From assembly GCF_036010665.1 (NCBI RefSeq), contig NZ_CP108581.1, positions 3,887,501 to 3,951,500 of the forward strand: a stretch of 64,000 bases of DNA. The letters are read 5' to 3'. Below, piece by piece: positions 7,526-14,223 of the stretch (within the stretch, counting starts at the first letter, position 1; each line of letters starts with the position of its first letter). The notes under the pieces are model-generated. The model did not search any database, was not told the DNA's origin, and was given only the letters and a program-made list of their open reading frames with translations. Position numbers and translations under genes: made by a program. The stretch is from Microbispora sp. NBC_01189. GTDB taxonomy: Bacteria; Actinomycetota; Actinomycetes; Streptosporangiales; Streptosporangiaceae.

Positions 7526-8965
7526 GTGGTGAAACGGTGGAGAGCGGGTCTCCCTAGGACCATGGCCGCCTTGGCCCTCGGCCTGGCCGGAACTGCGGCG
7601 GTGGTCGTGCCGGCGATGACGGCCACGGCCAGTACCGCCGACCTCGTCGTCGACTACGCCTGCAACCAGGGCATCGCGTCCTCCGGGTCCGGCACGGTCT
7701 ATCTACGGACGAAGCTCACCGTCCCGACGACGCTCAACGTGGGCGATCCCCTCAACGTCGGCTGGAACCTGGCCTACCGGGACGCGACCCGCTTCGGGGC
7801 GCCCGCCCTGCTGCCCAACGGCGGCAGGATCTACGCGACCGGAGAGGTCAACCTCAGCGACGGCTGGAAGGGACAGCTCCAGCCGGTGGGGAACGTCGAC
7901 CAGGCTGGGGCGATGAAGAAGGGGACCCCCCTCACTCTGCCGACCACGATCTCGGACTTCGCGTACACGACGAGGGCCGGCACGGTGACGGTCAAGCCGG
8001 GGAACCTCTACGTGGACTTCCGGCCCCCCGCCTCGGAGGTCATGGTCAACGACGACGATCTCTCGATCACCTACAGCGCGGGTGACTGGACGGACGTCAA
8101 CGACCGGCCGAGCGGAGACAACGACTACCACCTCGACTACCACCGGACGAACAAGGCCGGTGCGTGGGCGGCGCTCACCTTCACCGGCACCGGGATCGAG
8201 TACGTCGCACAGCGGGACCGGCATGCGGGGCCGGTCGAGATCTGGGTCGACAACCAGCTGGGAACTCCGCCGCGGGTGGAGCCCAACAAGAAGGACGACG
8301 GCACGCTGGTCAACGACTCGAACGTCGGCGGCCAGACCCTGTGGAGCTTCACGGAACTGGAGTACGGCGAGCACACGATCTCCATCAAGAGCGCCGAGGA
8401 CAAGCGGACGCTGCTGGACGCCTTCCGCGTGATCACCGGTGAGCTGCCCGGCCCGCCGCCGCAGTACCGCGCAACATGCACGCTCATCAGTGCTCCGGTA
8501 GCCGTGCAGGTGACGATCGCCGGCGGCAACACGCCGACCAGTCCGTCGACGTCGCCTGACACGTCTCCGCCGGCTTCCCCCGACACGTCGGGCAGCCCTT
8601 CGAGCACGCCGGACGGCAACAGCCCGCCGCCGGACGGGAACTCGCCGTCTCCGTCGGTGTCGCCGAGCACGACGCCGAGTCCGACTCCGCCGGTGGCGGC
8701 GACGCAGAGCTATCTGACCAGTGTGGTCGTCAAGGGCAGCCCGTCGCCGACGGCGACGCGCACCGTGACGCTGACCGCGACACCGACGGTGGCCCAGGTG
8801 GCGGTCACTCCGAAGGATGGCGCGCAGACCGGTGAGGCTCCGGAGCGGATGGCCGCCTCGGGTCCGCTCCTGCTCGGCTCGGGCGGCGCGCTACTGACAA
8901 TCGGCGTGCTCAGCGGTGTGGCACTGCTGCGGCGCAGGGCGGCGCACGCGGGCGAGCGGGCCTGA
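7526..8965 (+). CDS. Secreted surface protein A with CBM-like domain, Thr/Pro linker and GAQTG sorting signal
   Basis: A 479-aa exported protein. A signal peptide covers about residues 1-35 (KRWR, then a hydrophobic core ending near TATA). A Cys-bracketed beta domain starts at LVVDYACNQG and closes near YRATCTLI. Inserted at about 170-305 is a domain of the type VNDDDLSITYSAGDW...FTGTGIEY...TLLDAFRV, which resembles galactose-binding-fold carbohydrate-binding modules. A Ser/Pro/Thr-rich wall-spanning linker (about 330-390) follows. At the C-terminus GAQTG (432-436) precedes a hydrophobic segment and RRRAAHAGERA, the layout of a sortase signal without LPXTG. The start is GTG 7526. A sortase gene follows within about 10 bases. 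Cell-wall anchoring is inferred. Confidence 0.8.
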   Translation: MVKRWRAGLPRTMAALALGLAGTAAVVVPAMTATASTADLVVDYACNQGIASSGSGTVYLRTKLTVPTTLNVGDPLNVGWNLAYRDATRFGAPALLPNGGRIYATGEVNLSDGWKGQLQPVGNVDQAGAMKKGTPLTLPTTISDFAYTTRAGTVTVKPGNLYVDFRPPASEVMVNDDDLSITYSAGDWTDVNDRPSGDNDYHLDYHRTNKAGAWAALTFTGTGIEYVAQRDRHAGPVEIWVDNQLGTPPRVEPNKKDDGTLVNDSNVGGQTLWSFTELEYGEHTISIKSAEDKRTLLDAFRVITGELPGPPPQYRATCTLISAPVAVQVTIAGGNTPTSPSTSPDTSPPASPDTSGSPSSTPDGNSPPPDGNSPSPSVSPSTTPSPTPPVAATQSYLTSVVVKGSPSPTATRTVTLTATPTVAQVAVTPKDGAQTGEAPERMAASGPLLLGSGGALLTIGVLSGVALLRRRAAHAGERA

Positions 8966-8976
8966 GGAGGATGACG

Positions 8977-10032
8977 ATGAACCCGACTCCCGAGGGCGGC
9001 ACCCCCGCCAAGGACACACAAAACGGCGAAGCCGTCCAGAAGGCGACGAGCGGCGAAGCCGTCCAGGACGCGCAGAGCGGCGAAGCCGCGCAGAGTGCCC
9101 AGAGTGTGCCGAGCGTGCCGAACGCGCAGGGCGCGCAGAGCGTGCCGAACGCGCAGAGTCCGCAGAGCGGCCAGGGGGATGCGGCGGGGAAGCGGAAGGG
9201 CCTGCCGCAGCCGGTTCTCGCGACGCTGCTCGTGGCCGGGTCGTTCGGCGGCATCGCCGCCGTGATGGCGGGCATGCTCGCCGTGCTGTCGCCCGGTGAC
9301 TCCCAGGACGCCGCTCAAGTGCCGGGCGTTCAGTTGAACGTGCAGGACGTCGGCAGCGAGGCGTACCTGCCTCCGACCGTCGGCCCGGGCGGGCCGGGCG
9401 TGCCGCTCACGGCAGCGAACCCGACCGCGCCGCCGCCGCTGCCCGCCATCCAGCCGATCGGCCCGCTGGCCCTCACCACCACCACGGCCTCGTCGTCCTC
9501 CTCGCCGGTGTCCTCGTCCTCGAACACGGCGTCTACGAACAAGGCGAAGACCAGCACGGCGGCGAAGGTCACCGGCAGGCCGCTGAAGCTCAGCATTCCC
9601 TCGATCGGGGTGAAGGCCCGCGTCGGCTCCGTGGGGGTGCAGAAGTCGGGCGTCATCCAGGCGCCGCCGCTGAACAGGCCGAGCCTCACCGGCTGGTACC
9701 GCTTCGGGCCCGCCCCCGGCGACCAGGGGCCGGCGATCATCCTCGGGCACGTCAACACCCGTAAGGGCGCGGCCGTGTTCAGCCGCCTGCGCGAGCTCAA
9801 GCGCGGCAACAAGATCGCCGTACTGCGCGCGGACGGCAAGACGGCGATCTTCACGGTGGACGGGATCGAGCAGGTCAGCAAGTCGGCGTTCCCGACCAAG
9901 CGGGTCTACGGCAACACGATCACGTCGTCGCTGCGGCTGATCACCTGCGGCGGCGTCTTCAACGCCAAGGAGCACAGCTACACCGACAACATCGTCGTCT
10001 ACGCGACGCTGACGGCGACCAAGGGCAAGTGA
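8977..10032 (+). CDS. Class F sortase 1, membrane-bound with repetitive cytosolic tail
   Basis: A 351-aa actinobacterial class F sortase, a transpeptidase joining surface proteins to the cell wall. The cytosolic N-terminus (about 1-65) is a low-complexity run of SGEAVQ and VPNAQ-like repeats. One transmembrane helix (about 73-97) and a linker with Ser/Thr follow, then the sortase barrel from KLSIPSIGVKA. The catalytic His is H258 in ILGHVN and the Cys is C324 in LITCGG. No Arg follows the Cys; the usual place reads SYTDNIVVYA. ATG 8977 is chosen since GAGGAGG ends six bases upstream; ATG 8971 abuts that site. It directly follows surface protein A, its likely substrate. Confidence 0.85.
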   Translation: MNPTPEGGTPAKDTQNGEAVQKATSGEAVQDAQSGEAAQSAQSVPSVPNAQGAQSVPNAQSPQSGQGDAAGKRKGLPQPVLATLLVAGSFGGIAAVMAGMLAVLSPGDSQDAAQVPGVQLNVQDVGSEAYLPPTVGPGGPGVPLTAANPTAPPPLPAIQPIGPLALTTTTASSSSSPVSSSSNTASTNKAKTSTAAKVTGRPLKLSIPSIGVKARVGSVGVQKSGVIQAPPLNRPSLTGWYRFGPAPGDQGPAIILGHVNTRKGAAVFSRLRELKRGNKIAVLRADGKTAIFTVDGIEQVSKSAFPTKRVYGNTITSSLRLITCGGVFNAKEHSYTDNIVVYATLTATKGK

Positions 10033-10045
10033 TCCCCGCTCGCCC

Positions 10046-10071
10046 GTGAGGGGCGCCGTCGCGCCCCTCAC
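10046..10071. terminator. Hairpin terminator between converging genes
   Basis: The perfect 11-bp stem GTGAGGGGCGC/GCGCCCCTCAC closes a CGTC loop in the 51-bp gap between the sortase and the opposing secreted-protein gene. It can serve both strands; there is no long T run. Confidence 0.7.
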
Positions 10072-10083
10072 CCCGGCGGGTGG

Positions 10084-10929
10084 TCAGCCCAGTCCGATCA
10101 CCTCCTCGCCCTCCCGCGCCTCGCGCTCGGGCGGGTCGTACGGCTCGCGGCGTCCCGCCGCACGAGCGGCCCGGACCGCGCGCTGCACCAGCAGCGTTCC
10201 GGCCACCGCCGCGAGCGCCACCACGATCAGCGCGTACGGCTGCCGCCAGGGCGAGGAGCCATCGGCGCTCGCGGCCGTGACTCCGTCCAGCCGCTTCGCC
10301 TGTGCGGGCTGCGGGGACGGCGGCGCGAACCCTGTCTGCCCGGCCCCCTGCCCGGCTGTCTGCCCGGCCCCCTGCCCTGCCCCCTGCTCGGGCGGGGCGC
10401 CCGGCGGGGTGGCGAACCGCGCTCGGGCGGGGATCACGGTCGCCGCCTTCCAGGGGAACCCCGGCGGCTTCACCTGGCCCCAATAGTCCGTGATCTCCGA
10501 TCCGGCCTGCATCGCGTACTGCGGCGGGGCCGGCTTCAGCGTTCCGGGCACGGTGAGCGTCCCGACCTCGTACGGCGCGAACTTGCCCTGCACGCCCTGC
10601 ACCCGCCACCGCCCGGCGGGCACCGTGATCGTCGTCGCGTAGTGGGCGGGATCCGGCAACGGCGTCCCACCGAAACTCAGGGTCGTGCCGTCCTCTCCCG
10701 TCAGCAGCAGGCCGGTCGGCCCGAGCGCGTCGTAGTCGTCGTACGGATGCGTGCCGTGTTGCAGCACCCAGTAGCCGACCGTGTAGGACACATCGGGCCG
10801 CAGCGTCGCGGGGAGCGGGTCGAGTTCGGTGACGGCCCAGAACCCCGCCCGGGCGTGTGCGGGCGGCGCCGTCACCAGGACCGCCGCCAGTGCGGCGAGA
10901 GCCAGGATCAGTCGTCTCATCTCAGTCAC
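10084..10929 (-). CDS. Secreted, C-terminally membrane-anchored protein of unknown function
   Basis: A 281-aa product with a clear signal peptide (RRLILALAALAAVLVTAPPAHA), then a beta-rich extracellular domain (VSYTVGYWVLQHGTHPY, TITVPAGRWRVQGVQG). A Gly/Gln repeat stretch (GAGQ repeated, about 178-196) is followed by a transmembrane helix (about 227-248) and a charged cytosolic tail ending EEVIGLG. No sorting signal is seen. It lies opposite the two sortase/surface-protein units and diverges from surface protein B across 140 bp. No family is recognised. Start may be ATG 10929 or 10920. A role in the same envelope locus is inference from position. Confidence 0.7.
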   Translation of the reverse strand: MTEMRRLILALAALAAVLVTAPPAHARAGFWAVTELDPLPATLRPDVSYTVGYWVLQHGTHPYDDYDALGPTGLLLTGEDGTTLSFGGTPLPDPAHYATTITVPAGRWRVQGVQGKFAPYEVGTLTVPGTLKPAPPQYAMQAGSEITDYWGQVKPPGFPWKAATVIPARARFATPPGAPPEQGAGQGAGQTAGQGAGQTGFAPPSPQPAQAKRLDGVTAASADGSSPWRQPYALIVVALAAVAGTLLVQRAVRAARAAGRREPYDPPEREAREGEEVIGLG

Positions 10930-11069
10930 CTCCGTCCTCCTTACCGCCGGAAGTCCATGAGGGTTCCCTGAGAATTTCCTGACTTCTCAGTGCATGTGGT
11001 TATGGCGATGGTCAACTCCTGGGAGACTGAGGCCAACCTGTACGTGACTGAGGTGGCGGGAGAGACGTC

Positions 11070-12209
11070 GTGGCCGACCCCAGCGCCCGGCAGCGGACTG
11101 CCCGGCGACGAATCGCGGCGCGGGTGGCGGCGGGAGCGACGGCGGCGTTCGCACTGATGACGTGGCCGGTGCTCGCCGCGAGCGAGACCAGGACCGTCGT
11201 CTACTCCTGCACCGCGCTGGGTGGCGGCCAGGGGACCTACCCGGTGAGCGTGACCCTGCTCGGGCCCGACAACCCCACGGTGGGCGGCAACGTCCGGATC
11301 ACCTGGCGGATGGCCCCCGCCACGGCGGCTGAGGGACAGACGCCGATGCTCGCGCCGACGTCCATCGCCTCGGACGACGTCGTGGTCGCCGAGGGCGTGA
11401 TGGAGGTGACCGGCACTCCGGTGGCGAGCGGGTCCCCCTCACCATCCCCGAGCGCCAGCGCGACACCCACCCCGACTCCGACTCCGACTCCGACTCCCAG
11501 CGTGACTCCCACCCCGACTCCGCCCGACGTCGACGCGAATCCGCCGGGCGGCACCGACACGGCCCCGTCCCCGGACGAGTCGGAGCCGTCGAAGGAGTCC
11601 CTCGCCGCGGCGGGCGGCCGCACGCTGAGCCCCTCGGCGACGGTGACGGCCGGGACGCCCGTGGCGGCGCAGGCCACCCTGTCGCCGATCCCCGATCTCG
11701 TCGTCACACTGGCCCCGACGGCGGCCGGGGTCATCGGCGTGACGGCGGGAGACTTCACGCTGCGGTTGTTGCCGTCCGGGACCGGCACGGGAGCGGCGCT
11801 CTACACATGCACCCTGCCGGCCACCGCGGCCGGAGCCTCGCTCGCGCTCACTGTCGGCGCCTCGCCGTCCCCCTCCACCTCGCCGAGCCCGTCGGACACC
11901 GGTGACGCGGACGACATGACCCCGACGCCCACCCCGACCGAGACCACGACGGCGACCGAGACCGCGACGGCGACGGCCACGGTCACCCACACCGCCACGG
12001 CCAGGGCGACTACGACCGTCTCCCACACGGTGACCGCGCAGGTCAGCAGGACCCCGATCGGCGGCGCGCAGACGGGCGCGGGCGGCGACGCGGGCCCGGA
12101 CGCCCGGGTCGTCGTGCTGACCGGCCTGCTGCTGATGGCCGCCTCCGCGGCCGGAGGGCTGCTGCTCCGCCGGTTCGGCCCGCGCCCGCGCCCGTACGGT
12201 GGGCGGTAG
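11070..12209 (+). CDS. Secreted surface protein B with Thr/Pro repeats and GGAQTG sorting signal
   Basis: A 379-aa exported protein starting at GTG 11070 after a GGGAGAG site. A signal peptide (RRRIAARVAAGATAAFALMTWPVLAAS) is followed by a Cys-bracketed domain (RTVVYSCTALGG ... ALYTCTLPAT) interrupted by a long Thr-Pro tract near 128-155. A second Thr/Ala-rich stalk (about 285-325) leads to PIGGAQTGAGGDAGPDAR, with GAQTG at 332-336, a hydrophobic helix and RRFGPRPRPYGGR. Shared ends with surface protein C (GGAxTG then GGDAGPDAR) show the two are paralogues. It is followed 157 bp later by protein C. Anchoring by a nearby class F sortase is inferred. Confidence 0.78.
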   Translation: MADPSARQRTARRRIAARVAAGATAAFALMTWPVLAASETRTVVYSCTALGGGQGTYPVSVTLLGPDNPTVGGNVRITWRMAPATAAEGQTPMLAPTSIASDDVVVAEGVMEVTGTPVASGSPSPSPSASATPTPTPTPTPTPSVTPTPTPPDVDANPPGGTDTAPSPDESEPSKESLAAAGGRTLSPSATVTAGTPVAAQATLSPIPDLVVTLAPTAAGVIGVTAGDFTLRLLPSGTGTGAALYTCTLPATAAGASLALTVGASPSPSTSPSPSDTGDADDMTPTPTPTETTTATETATATATVTHTATARATTTVSHTVTAQVSRTPIGGAQTGAGGDAGPDARVVVLTGLLLMAASAAGGLLLRRFGPRPRPYGGR

Positions 12210-12366
12210 CGTGGTGTGATGCGAAGATAACGAAAACATGACCAGTTTTGGGGAATCGGCGGCAATGTTGGGGCTTTTGTCCGTAAACTCTCTACCCTGT
12301 CGTGACCGTACTCTGGAATGCTGGTACGTCTGTTCATCCTGAGGCACAAGTAGGGGAGAGAAGTCA

Positions 12367-13299
12367 GTGCTGAAGTTCAAGGCGCGGGGCCGTGTCGCCG
12401 GGAGAGCCGCCGCGGCCGGCGTAGTCAGCGCGGGCGTCCTCCTCGGCCTGACCGCGCTCGACGCGCAGGCCGACTCGAAGACCGTGAGCTACAACTGTTC
12501 AACCGGGACCAGCCCTTCCACCGAAGTCGCCCATGACTTCACCGTGTCACTCACGGAGATCCCCAGGCAGGCGGGGACCGGCACGCAGTACACCGCGACC
12601 CTGACCATCGTGCCGGTCACCTCGGCGGAGTCGCCCTTCCCGGCGCCGGTGGCGATCGAGAGCGGCGCGTCGCTCCAGTTGCTGCCCAGTGTGGCGGCCA
12701 CGGTGCTGCCCGCCACCGCGACCGCGGGCGTCTCCACGCCCTCGCCGACCAGCGCGGTGGCCGCGAACGTGACCGCCCAGGGGACGATGCCCCCGCTGCC
12801 GGCGGCGACGCTGACCATCACCCCCTCCGCCGGGGCGACGTCCGTCGCTCTCACGGCGAAGGACTTCAAGATCAACATGTACGCGCCCGCCGGGACGGGC
12901 ACCGTCACGACGACGCCCACCCTGCTCTACACGTGTCAGCTCGCGACGTCGGGCACCAGCACGACGCCCGCCTCGGTGACGATCGCGGTCACGGCCTCGC
13001 CGAGCACGACTCCCACCCCCACCCCCACCCCCACCCCGACGCCGACGCCGAGCGCGACGCCCACCCCGCGCGGCACCCGCACCGTGTATGAGACGGTCAC
13101 CGCGAAGCCCGCGACCGACAAGGCGACGACCGGTTCGGAGCAGGTTCCCCACACGCCCGCGGGCGGCGCCGCCACCGGCGGCGGAGGGGACGCCGGCCCC
13201 GACGCGCGCCTGTTCGTGCTCACCGGTGCCGCGCTGATGCTGGCGGCGGGGGGCGGCGGGCTCGTGCTCCGGGCCCGGCGCAGGCCGGCGAGGCAGTAG
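12367..13299 (+). CDS. Secreted surface protein C with GGAATG sorting signal
   Basis: A 310-aa exported protein; GTG 12367 follows AGGGGAGAG at 12352-12360. After the signal peptide (about 1-35, ending DAQA) comes SKTVSYNCST and, much later, LLYTCQLATS, giving the same Cys-bracketed beta domain as protein B. A Thr-Pro stalk (about 215-235) and THR/Val tract precede PAGGAATGGGGDAGPDAR (GAATG 267-271), a hydrophobic helix and RARRRPARQ. Nine bases separate it from sortase 2, so the pair is probably cotranscribed. Function beyond wall display is unknown. Confidence 0.78.
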   Translation: MLKFKARGRVAGRAAAAGVVSAGVLLGLTALDAQADSKTVSYNCSTGTSPSTEVAHDFTVSLTEIPRQAGTGTQYTATLTIVPVTSAESPFPAPVAIESGASLQLLPSVAATVLPATATAGVSTPSPTSAVAANVTAQGTMPPLPAATLTITPSAGATSVALTAKDFKINMYAPAGTGTVTTTPTLLYTCQLATSGTSTTPASVTIAVTASPSTTPTPTPTPTPTPTPSATPTPRGTRTVYETVTAKPATDKATTGSEQVPHTPAGGAATGGGGDAGPDARLFVLTGAALMLAAGGGGLVLRARRRPARQ

Positions 13300-13308
13300 G
13301 ACGGTGCC

Positions 13309-14223
13309 ATGACGACCCCGCCACCTGGACAGTACCCGCCGGGCCAGCCGTACGGCATGCCTCCCGGGGCGGGCGGGCAGGGGTACCCGCAGCCGGTCTA
13401 CGGCCAGCCCGTCTTCCAGCCGGTCATGCTGCCTCCTCAGATGCAGCCGGCGCAGCAGCAGCCACAGCCGCGGCAGGAGCCGCCTCCGGGCGGCGCCGCG
13501 CTCACGGCCCGCCGCGTGCTGATCACGGCGGCCATCGTGGGGCTGGTCACCGTGCTCGTGGGTGTGGTGATCATGGTGAACCACCCGGACGAGTACGCTC
13601 CGTCGAGCCGTACGTCGCTGAAGATGGTGGTTCCGCCGAACGGGCTGGCTCAGTCGGTGGGTCCGGGCGGAGTGGGGCAGCCCCTCACGCAGGCGGTCGC
13701 CAATGCCCCGGCGCCGTTGCCGAAGATCCCGGCCGCCCCGGCCCTGCAGCCGTCCACGCCCAAGCGCCTGATCATCCGCAAGATCGGGGTGAATGCGCCG
13801 ATCGCCTCGGTCGGTCTCGACCGCGCCGGCGCGATCCAGACCCCGCCGATCAACAACCACAACCTCGTCGGCTGGTACCGGGGCGGCCCGACGGTGGGAG
13901 AGGCCGGTCCGGCCGTCATGCTCGGCCACAAGGACACCGTCTCGCGCAGCGCCGTCTTCAGCCGCCTGCACGAGCTCGCGTACGGCGACACGATCGAGGT
14001 CACCCGCATGGACGGGACGATCGCGGTCTTCACCGTGGGCGGCATCGAGCAGGCCGACAAGCAGACGTTCCCCACCAGCCGGGTGTACGGCCAGGCCGCG
14101 GACGCCGAGCTCAGGCTGATCACCTGCGGCGGCTCCTACAACCACACGACCGGTCACTACACCGACAACGTCATCGTCTACGCCCTGATGACCGGCACCC
14201 GCCTGGCGAAACCGAAGTCCTGA
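13309..14223 (+). CDS. Class F sortase 2, with Pro/Gln-rich cytosolic tail
   Basis: A 304-aa paralogue of sortase 1. The first 60 residues are a Pro/Gln/Gly-rich cytosolic tail (PPGQYPPGQPYGMPPG), then one transmembrane helix (about 65-87). The sortase core begins KRLIIRKIGVNAPI and has the class F GWYRGGPTVGEAGPAVMLGHKD with H207, and RLITCGGSY with C273. The segment after Cys reads HYTDNVIVYA and lacks the Arg expected near there; the only later Arg is in the C-terminal tail. It follows surface protein C by nine bases, with no strong Shine-Dalgarno, suggesting translational coupling. The substrate assignment to B and C is inferred. Confidence 0.85.
   Translation: MTTPPPGQYPPGQPYGMPPGAGGQGYPQPVYGQPVFQPVMLPPQMQPAQQQPQPRQEPPPGGAALTARRVLITAAIVGLVTVLVGVVIMVNHPDEYAPSSRTSLKMVVPPNGLAQSVGPGGVGQPLTQAVANAPAPLPKIPAAPALQPSTPKRLIIRKIGVNAPIASVGLDRAGAIQTPPINNHNLVGWYRGGPTVGEAGPAVMLGHKDTVSRSAVFSRLHELAYGDTIEVTRMDGTIAVFTVGGIEQADKQTFPTSRVYGQAADAELRLITCGGSYNHTTGHYTDNVIVYALMTGTRLAKPKS

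Follow-up and report, generated by a model that had tools for sequence, protein, structure and literature searches.

Twin class F sortases and their putative substrates in Microbispora with a proline-led sorting signal other than LPXTG

Two putative class F sortase-substrate pairs in Microbispora

We analyzed a stretch of 64,000 nucleotides from Microbispora sp. NBC_01189 (contig NZ_CP108581.1, positions 3,887,501 to 3,951,500; hereinafter the window), which belongs to a complete genome of 7.37 Mb. In it, the genes for three secreted surface proteins, A, B and C, accompany those for two class F sortases, SrtF-A and SrtF-C. We consider it probable that these represent two class F sortase-substrate pairs derived from one duplicated pair, together with an extra substrate, B, and that the substrates are anchored to the cell wall via a sorting signal other than LPXTG. 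We document below the signal itself, how well it is conserved and how closely it is linked to class F sortases, as well as the match between signal type and the two sister clades in which the enzymes fall.

The three proteins have Pro/Ser/Thr-rich stalks and end in TPKDGAQTGEAPER, TPIGGAQTGAGGDAGPDAR and TPAGGAATGGGGDAGPDAR, respectively; a hydrophobic helix and then a tail rich in Arg come after this stretch in each of them. By a hydropathy rule and the sequence, all three have the order expected of a sorting signal, namely the motif, then the hydrophobic helix and then the basic tail; their secretion signals were called from hydropathy and by eye rather than with a predictor. A first-pass annotation of this DNA had described the endings as GAQTG, GAQTG and GAATG with this helix and tail, and its coordinates and residues proved to be correct. 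It had also reported the absence of LPXTG and LAXTG, and a whole-protein pattern check indeed found no L[PA]xTG anywhere in A, B or C. Likewise borne out were the GGAxTG followed by GGDAGPDAR common to B and C, with one variable residue between the two elements, and the placement of class F sortases directly after A and C: SrtF-A starts 5 bases past A and SrtF-C 9 bases past C, and both exceed the 166-bit cut-off of the NCBIfam class F profile NF033748 (Table 1). The same genome encodes a further class F sortase, the third, together with a partner of its own, about 41 kb outside the window (locus L002).

Under the proposed mechanism, one ancestral class F sortase-substrate pair would have been duplicated, with B added as an extra substrate. 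A, B and C would be secreted and held in the membrane via the C-terminal helix, with A being the substrate of SrtF-A, and C and, presumably, the second substrate B being those of SrtF-C. The neighboring class F sortase would then cut the signal past its fourth residue, between the Thr and Gly of G-A-x-T-G, and the cut proteins would be covalently joined to a putative cell-wall acceptor. Instead of LPXTG, the enzyme would read an extended P-x-G-[G/A]-[V/A/P]-x-[T/A/G]-G-x-G, with the twins predicted to be selective for their own partners.

Conservation of the signal within the genus

A, B and C, each in a single copy bearing the motif, are found in the window and in 13 of the 14 other genomes of the genus that were examined (L112-L124); the 14th (G014) has only a 3.7-kb contig at the locus. 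The stretch conserved at the genus level is longer than initially noted, namely Q-[V/I]-x-x-T-P-x-G-G-A-x-T-G, with rare exceptions. Among proteins selected by a motif regular expression, most motif codons of B and C vary synonymously across the genus, with the signal residues nearly fixed. The motif codons of A are uninformative in this regard because the five codons for A-Q-T-G-E are invariant. This recurrence within the genus, the synonymous codon variation in B and C, and a blind motif discovery that scored far above shuffled sets (see below) together argue that the predicted signal in A, B and C is not a chance occurrence.

A related signal adjoins class F sortases across actinomycetes

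To collect sortases, we used the NF033748 profile, which at an E-value of 0.001 had matches in 38 of 41 relatives, 31 of them over its cut-off, and in 179 of 246 class-level genomes, 106 of them over it. These counts, as also those for the profile NF058571 below, are among the matches listed, and the loci fetched represent a part of the class F matches. The loci comprised an initial 120, then 79 from named genomes (from the best 80 of a longer list) and finally 20 around weak matches. The initial 120, along with the window and the third locus of its genome, yielded 147 class F sortases; 121 of these have a tailed upstream neighbor (i.e., one with a C-terminal helix and a basic tail) on the same strand, whereas for 15 the sole tailed neighbor is divergent and 11 are without any. 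The open reading frames were called mechanically, and some of the neighbors are spurious.

Unsupervised motif discovery on 82 non-redundant regions preceding the helix recovered P-x-G-[GA]-[VAP]-x-[TA]-G-x-G with a log-likelihood of 519, as against 131-149 in four shuffled sets. Across actinomycetes, the overall signal beside these enzymes reads P-x-G-[G/A]-[V/A/P]-x-[T/A/G]-G-x-G. We then tabulated 147 non-redundant signals scoring at least 5 bits and with a Gly after the cleavage residue (one lacking this Gly was left out). The first position is Pro in 142 of these; the place corresponding to the Leu of LPXTG is occupied by Gly (94), Ala (28), Pro (11), His (7), Ser (5) or Arg (2), and never by Leu; and the fourth position, corresponding to the Thr of LPXTG, is occupied by Thr (96), Ala (43), Gly (5) or Ser (3). 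A tailed same-strand upstream neighbor was found for 220 of 259 class F sortases, with the remaining 39 being without one, and in none of these 220 neighbors, which include redundant sequences, is the helix preceded by LPXTG or LAXTG. Two fit other loose patterns: one is a spurious-looking open reading frame and the other, GSPQTG, is the class F signal itself.

With a motif model trained on the relatives set, 116 of the 147 sortases of the training set and 73 of 92 from the named genomes have a first neighbor with 8 bits or more. Of the latter 92 sortases, 8 are practically identical and 23 at least 80% alike to training ones; upon removing those at least 80% identical, the count is 53 of 69. 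As a control, 26 of 515 other tailed open reading frames in the loci reach 8 bits, and the 15 best of these 26 all resemble real signals, nine of them being B proteins. Many neighbors of distant class F sortases visibly bear xGVxAGxGG. Thus, the first-pass proposal that class F enzymes recognize a motif other than LPXTG is favored to the extent that such a signal adjoins most of the sortases examined, and homologs with LPXTG at the same site did not turn up among the 220 neighbors. Its GAxTG, however, is too narrow, being one form of P-x-G-[GA]-[VAP]-x-[TAG]-G.

Genome-wide association with class F enzymes

The NCBIfam profile NF058571, which describes a GVDTG sorting domain (cut-off 29 bits), was built independently of these data. 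Its cut-off is exceeded in 63 of 140 genomes that have a class F sortase and in 0 of 106 without one, class F presence being defined by a match at an E-value of 1e-15 (Fisher p 2.6e-19; 246 genomes, hand count). At 77 of the 83 passing places, a class F sortase is found no more than 1.6 kb away, with a median gap of 306 bases; of the others, the one in G239 adjoins a class F sortase missed in the list and five are not shown to be adjacent. Moreover, 30 of 45 diverse class F partners match this profile at an E-value of 0.01. Of the window's own proteins, B and C score 23.4 and 18.5 bits in a protein scan, both under the cut-off, and A is unmatched there; a genome scan gave 28.3 and 23.1 bits. 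Other weak matches in the window's genome, one of which looks CopC-type, were not accepted. A DNA-level pattern search for the motif in this genome gave no signal, with 96 places as against 143 in a reversed control.

Our own signal profile (A5), at an E-value of 1e-5, detects 19 of 20 class F genomes, some of which contributed to its training, and 0 of 20 class-F-free genomes; at 0.001, weak and mostly tail-only matches appear in 7 of the latter 20. In the window's genome it makes four strong matches (E-values 5.0e-10 to 7.3e-8), which are A, B, C and the neighbor of the third class F sortase, the tail of this last being itself a row of A5. An LPFTG protein comes next (E-value 3.6e-4). The genome encodes another protein of this type beside its class E sortase, and both lie away from class F genes. 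Two predicted sorting codes therefore coexist in this genome, and since it has LPFTG proteins, the signals of A, B and C are unlikely to be degenerate versions of LPXTG used for want of another.

Active site of the class F sortases

SrtF-A and SrtF-C both retain the catalytic His and Cys, which are present in 189 and 192, respectively, of 195 non-redundant class F rows. At the usual position of the catalytic Arg there is Asn in 190 rows, including both window sortases, Ser in three and Thr in two, with the register read from the sequence, as the class E profile alignment has a gap there. Malik and Kim reportedly carried out an early analysis of this replacement, in 2019. The Arg-to-Asn change in actinobacterial class F sortases is already described in passages of PMC6998099, where an earlier analysis by the same group is cited, and we accordingly dropped it as a new observation. 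An Arg four residues before the Cys was considered as a stand-in for the lost Arg and set aside, being present in only 167 of 195 rows. A single-sequence search found no solved structure matching SrtF-C at an E-value of 0.01.

A scored motif adjoins 148 of 189 intact sortases as against none of the six non-redundant ones lacking the catalytic His or Cys (p 1.5e-4), a difference that is no more than suggestive.

Divergence of the twin pairs

In a FastTree tree of the 195 non-redundant class F domains, SrtF-C falls in a clade of 17 rows (local support 99), all of which have C-type signals (TGxGGxxGPD[AG]R), and SrtF-A in a clade of 22 rows (support 96), of which 18 have A-type signals (TG[EVQ]..), one another signal and three are unlabeled. 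The two clades are sisters, joined at a support of 98. The signal type changes once among the 36 labeled rows, one of which (L070) is a mislabeled outsider, as against a mean of 12.1 and a minimum of 6 upon shuffling. For the residue preceding the cleavage Gly, 26 changes were counted over 148 rows, from which three labeled rows with an odd residue had been excluded, as against a shuffled mean of 45.8 and minimum of 37. The ectodomains of B and C are weakly similar (E-value 2e-5 over 56 residues), and those of A and B reach an E-value of 0.05.

These patterns fit a history in which an enzyme-substrate pair was duplicated and enzyme and substrate then diverged together, and the twins look like such a duplicated pair. 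SrtF-C is the likeliest enzyme for B, given that the flank of B is C-type and that no sortase directly follows it. As for the earlier suggestion that each sortase might serve its own partner, the signal type does track the sortase clade, and it is this co-inheritance that supports the suggestion; matched clades do not by themselves prove selectivity because adjacent genes are inherited together.

Organization of the locus

The features of the locus are collected in Table 1. Among the matches listed, the closest named relative of SrtF-C is from Microbispora amethystogenes, with 98% identity over 154 residues. Pfam gave nothing over its cut-off for A. Between the twins lies a further gene, for protein D, homologs of which are present in 10 of 13 loci of the genus, with none found in L114, L117 and L119. 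Lacking the motif and a detectable homolog in these three loci, D was rejected as a member of the module, and it is probably not an essential part of it.

Table 1. Features of the twin class F sortase locus (positions within the window)
Feature	Position	Strand	Remarks
Protein A	7526-8965	+	Secreted surface protein, 479 amino acids; Pro/Ser/Thr-rich stalk, C-terminal helix, RRR tail
A-type sorting signal	8810-8851	+	PKDGAQTGEAPERM; GAQTG at 8819-8833
SrtF-A	8971-10032	+	Class F sortase; catalytic domain about 9556-10017; NF033748 195.3 bits; PF04203
Protein D	10084-10929	-	Between the twins; secreted, C-terminal membrane helix, long tail; sorting motif absent
Protein B	11070-12209	+	Secreted surface protein, 379 amino acids; C-type GPDAR flank; no sortase directly after
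B sorting signal	12054-12113	+	PIGGAQTGAGGDAGPDARVV; GAQTG at 12063-12077
Protein C	12367-13299	+	Secreted surface protein, 310 amino acids
C-type sorting signal	13156-13209	+	PAGGAATGGGGDAGPDAR; GAATG at 13165-13179
SrtF-C	13309-14223	+	Class F sortase; catalytic domain 13735-14196; NF033748 201.2 bits
SrtF-C active-site residues	His codon 13927; Cys codon 14125; Asn 14167		From alignment; Asn at the usual catalytic-Arg position

Cargo variety and atypical members

A whole-length alignment of 45 chosen partners is near-invariant only at the initial Met, at one Pro and at residues belonging to the signal and the tail. BLAST single-linkage clustering of 149 ectodomains gave 49 groups, the largest with 35 and 32 members. 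The putative cargo is thus varied with a common tail, and two families are frequent. Pfam searches with the 45 partners identified DUF4397 in three, CHRD in two, and the ice-binding, MG2, PT and DMFA2_C domains in one each; the ice-binding-like domain (E-value 4.2e-61), the only such match among the 45, is in a class F partner at L132:3102-4259.

Three partners (L224:1697-3016, L259:1571-3145 and L267:2484-3083) have three to five copies of the motif (PHGG[VM]H[TA]GGG and close forms), all except the last being in the ectodomain and evenly spaced in part of L259. These could be several cleavage or joining sites or, equally, a repeat element. Beside a same-genus class F sortase (L045-L052), the candidate signal PIGGVAAGFGG is on a divergent gene about 1.1 kb off, rather than on one immediately upstream, in most of the loci shown.

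Certain class F homologs have lost catalytic residues. One with His to Arg and Cys to Ser substitutions (L084 and L276, with a close copy in L274) is adjacent to a tailed protein without a scored motif; this sortase is apparently inactive, yet it is kept in three genomes. Two genomes of the same order as the window's (L130 and L131) have tandem class F copies, of which three have His replaced by Tyr and one of these three is also without the Cys, and no candidate partner was found for them. In L242, one class F copy is without the catalytic His.

Alternative explanations and points against the proposal

The partners could instead be plain tail-anchored membrane proteins with a glycine-rich linker, the sortases acting on LPXTG or LAXTG proteins elsewhere. 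The motif is indeed short and glycine-rich, the helix and Arg tail alone would be enough for membrane anchoring, some ectodomains have internal motif copies as a repeat element might, and the relaxed A5 search did give its weak, mostly tail-only matches in class-F-free genomes. We nevertheless regard this explanation as unlikely: the P and G positions are fixed and the motif stands far above shuffles, the stricter A5 threshold separates class F genomes (in part those trained on) from class-F-free ones, and the two LPFTG proteins lie away from class F genes, with one beside a class E sortase. That any sortase, including class E, handles GAxTG signals, with class F not discriminating, appears quite improbable given that no class-F-free genome has an NF058571 match over the cut-off and that at least one such genome (G030) has a clear class E sortase; it would, on the other hand, account for signals approaching LPXTG-like forms, such as GAPETG and GSPQTG. 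We attach very little probability to the class F sortases here being polymerases or partner-releasing proteases rather than wall anchors. Chaining would be permitted by the internal motif copies of some Streptomyces/Kitasatospora-type partners; A, B and C, however, each have a single copy in their last 90 residues and no pilin domain at an E-value of 0.1.

Several points weigh against the proposal of wall-anchored class F sortase-substrate pairs. A Thr-to-Ala/Gly change at the acyl position is unusual. NF058571 finds no match over the cut-off in 77 of 140 class F genomes, and 7 of 106 class-F-free genomes have weak matches below it (E-value 0.001 or better). In the weak set of distant class F sortases the first neighbor reaches 8 bits in only 2 of 20, most of these having a shorter spacing (e.g., PDGVNSGTGG) that scores poorly in the trained model. 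Of the intact sortases, 41 of 189 lack a neighbor with at least 5 bits; 11 of these 41 are without a tailed neighbor and about 18 fit a looser pattern only, the looser patterns and the A/C labels alike having been defined after the sequences were inspected. The six inactive sortases amount to about three lineages, four of them are without a candidate neighbor and one fits a looser pattern. The signal type could not be assigned to any residue of the sortases: among the output listed, none co-varies with the choice between Thr and Ala/Gly/Ser at the place of cleavage, the seven independent pairs being too few. Co-inheritance of neighboring genes can yield matched clades without selectivity, and cleavage, anchoring and mutual selectivity are here inferred from sequence rather than from biochemistry. 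Finally, a quadruple class F deletion in Actinoplanes missouriensis is described in passages of PMC13251363 as giving normal sporangia and no phenotypic change.

Taking the preferred reading of duplicated, wall-anchoring class F pairs further, we tentatively raise the possibility, less secure than that reading, that the Asn-type class F sortases constitute a private actinobacterial code, in which each enzyme might have its own one or two substrates with a Leu-free, Pro-led signal, form the acyl bond on Thr, Ala or Gly, and diverge into orthogonal twins (TGE-A-P vs TG-G-G-G-x-x-GPDAR). A concrete signal allows genome-by-genome listing of substrates and cleavage tests with short peptides, which offers a testable target for enzymes of largely unknown role, and new sortase specificities would be useful as orthogonal protein-joining tools.

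Comparison with known systems

The sortase SrtF of Cutibacterium acnes is also called class F, and Di Girolamo 2019 is said to be the primary source on its use of LPXTG. Unlike the enzymes considered here, it takes LPXTG, as stated in passages of PMC7913060 and PMC13257024, in agreement with the first-pass annotation. This comparison may mix two lineages, because the structure presented as class F in PMC8361268 (PDB 5UUS) scores a mere 18.7 bits on the profile of the enzymes studied here and 95.3 bits against the class E sortase of this genome; its sequence is far from those of our enzymes, and at the position of their Asn it appears to have Arg.

Some actinomycetes have many class F sortases, with five in Streptomyces coelicolor (in passages of PMC5148588) and four in A. 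missouriensis (in those of PMC13251363). The signals listed by class in the relevant part of PMC5148588 cover classes A to E only. Among these, the class E sortase SrtE1 of S. coelicolor with its LAXTG is likewise actinobacterial and deviates from LPXTG; the class E signal, however, keeps the Leu, which is found in none of the 147 class F signals. The physiological roles of class F remain unknown according to the 2026 paper PMC13251363, as far as its excerpted text goes. The same text describes A. missouriensis SrtF1 and SrtF4 beside AMIS_11010 and AMIS_36440, which like A and C have a signal peptide, a helix and a basic tail next to a class F gene, a likeness drawn from the published description rather than from their sequences. 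Its authors suggest them as possible substrates, their search for known pentapeptides having found none. The papers found leave the class F substrates open, and among open-license papers none was found that pairs a sortase with GVDTG.

The closest precedent is NF058571 (GVDTG_CTERM), which likewise combines GxxTG, a helix and a basic tail, and whose matches over the cut-off mostly adjoin class F sortases. With A unmatched, and B and C below its cut-off, its name covers one form of a wider signal. Hence, part of the signal was already known to the curators of that profile; what is new here is the breadth of the signal, its substitution pattern, the proposed enzyme-substrate pairing and the divergence of the twins.

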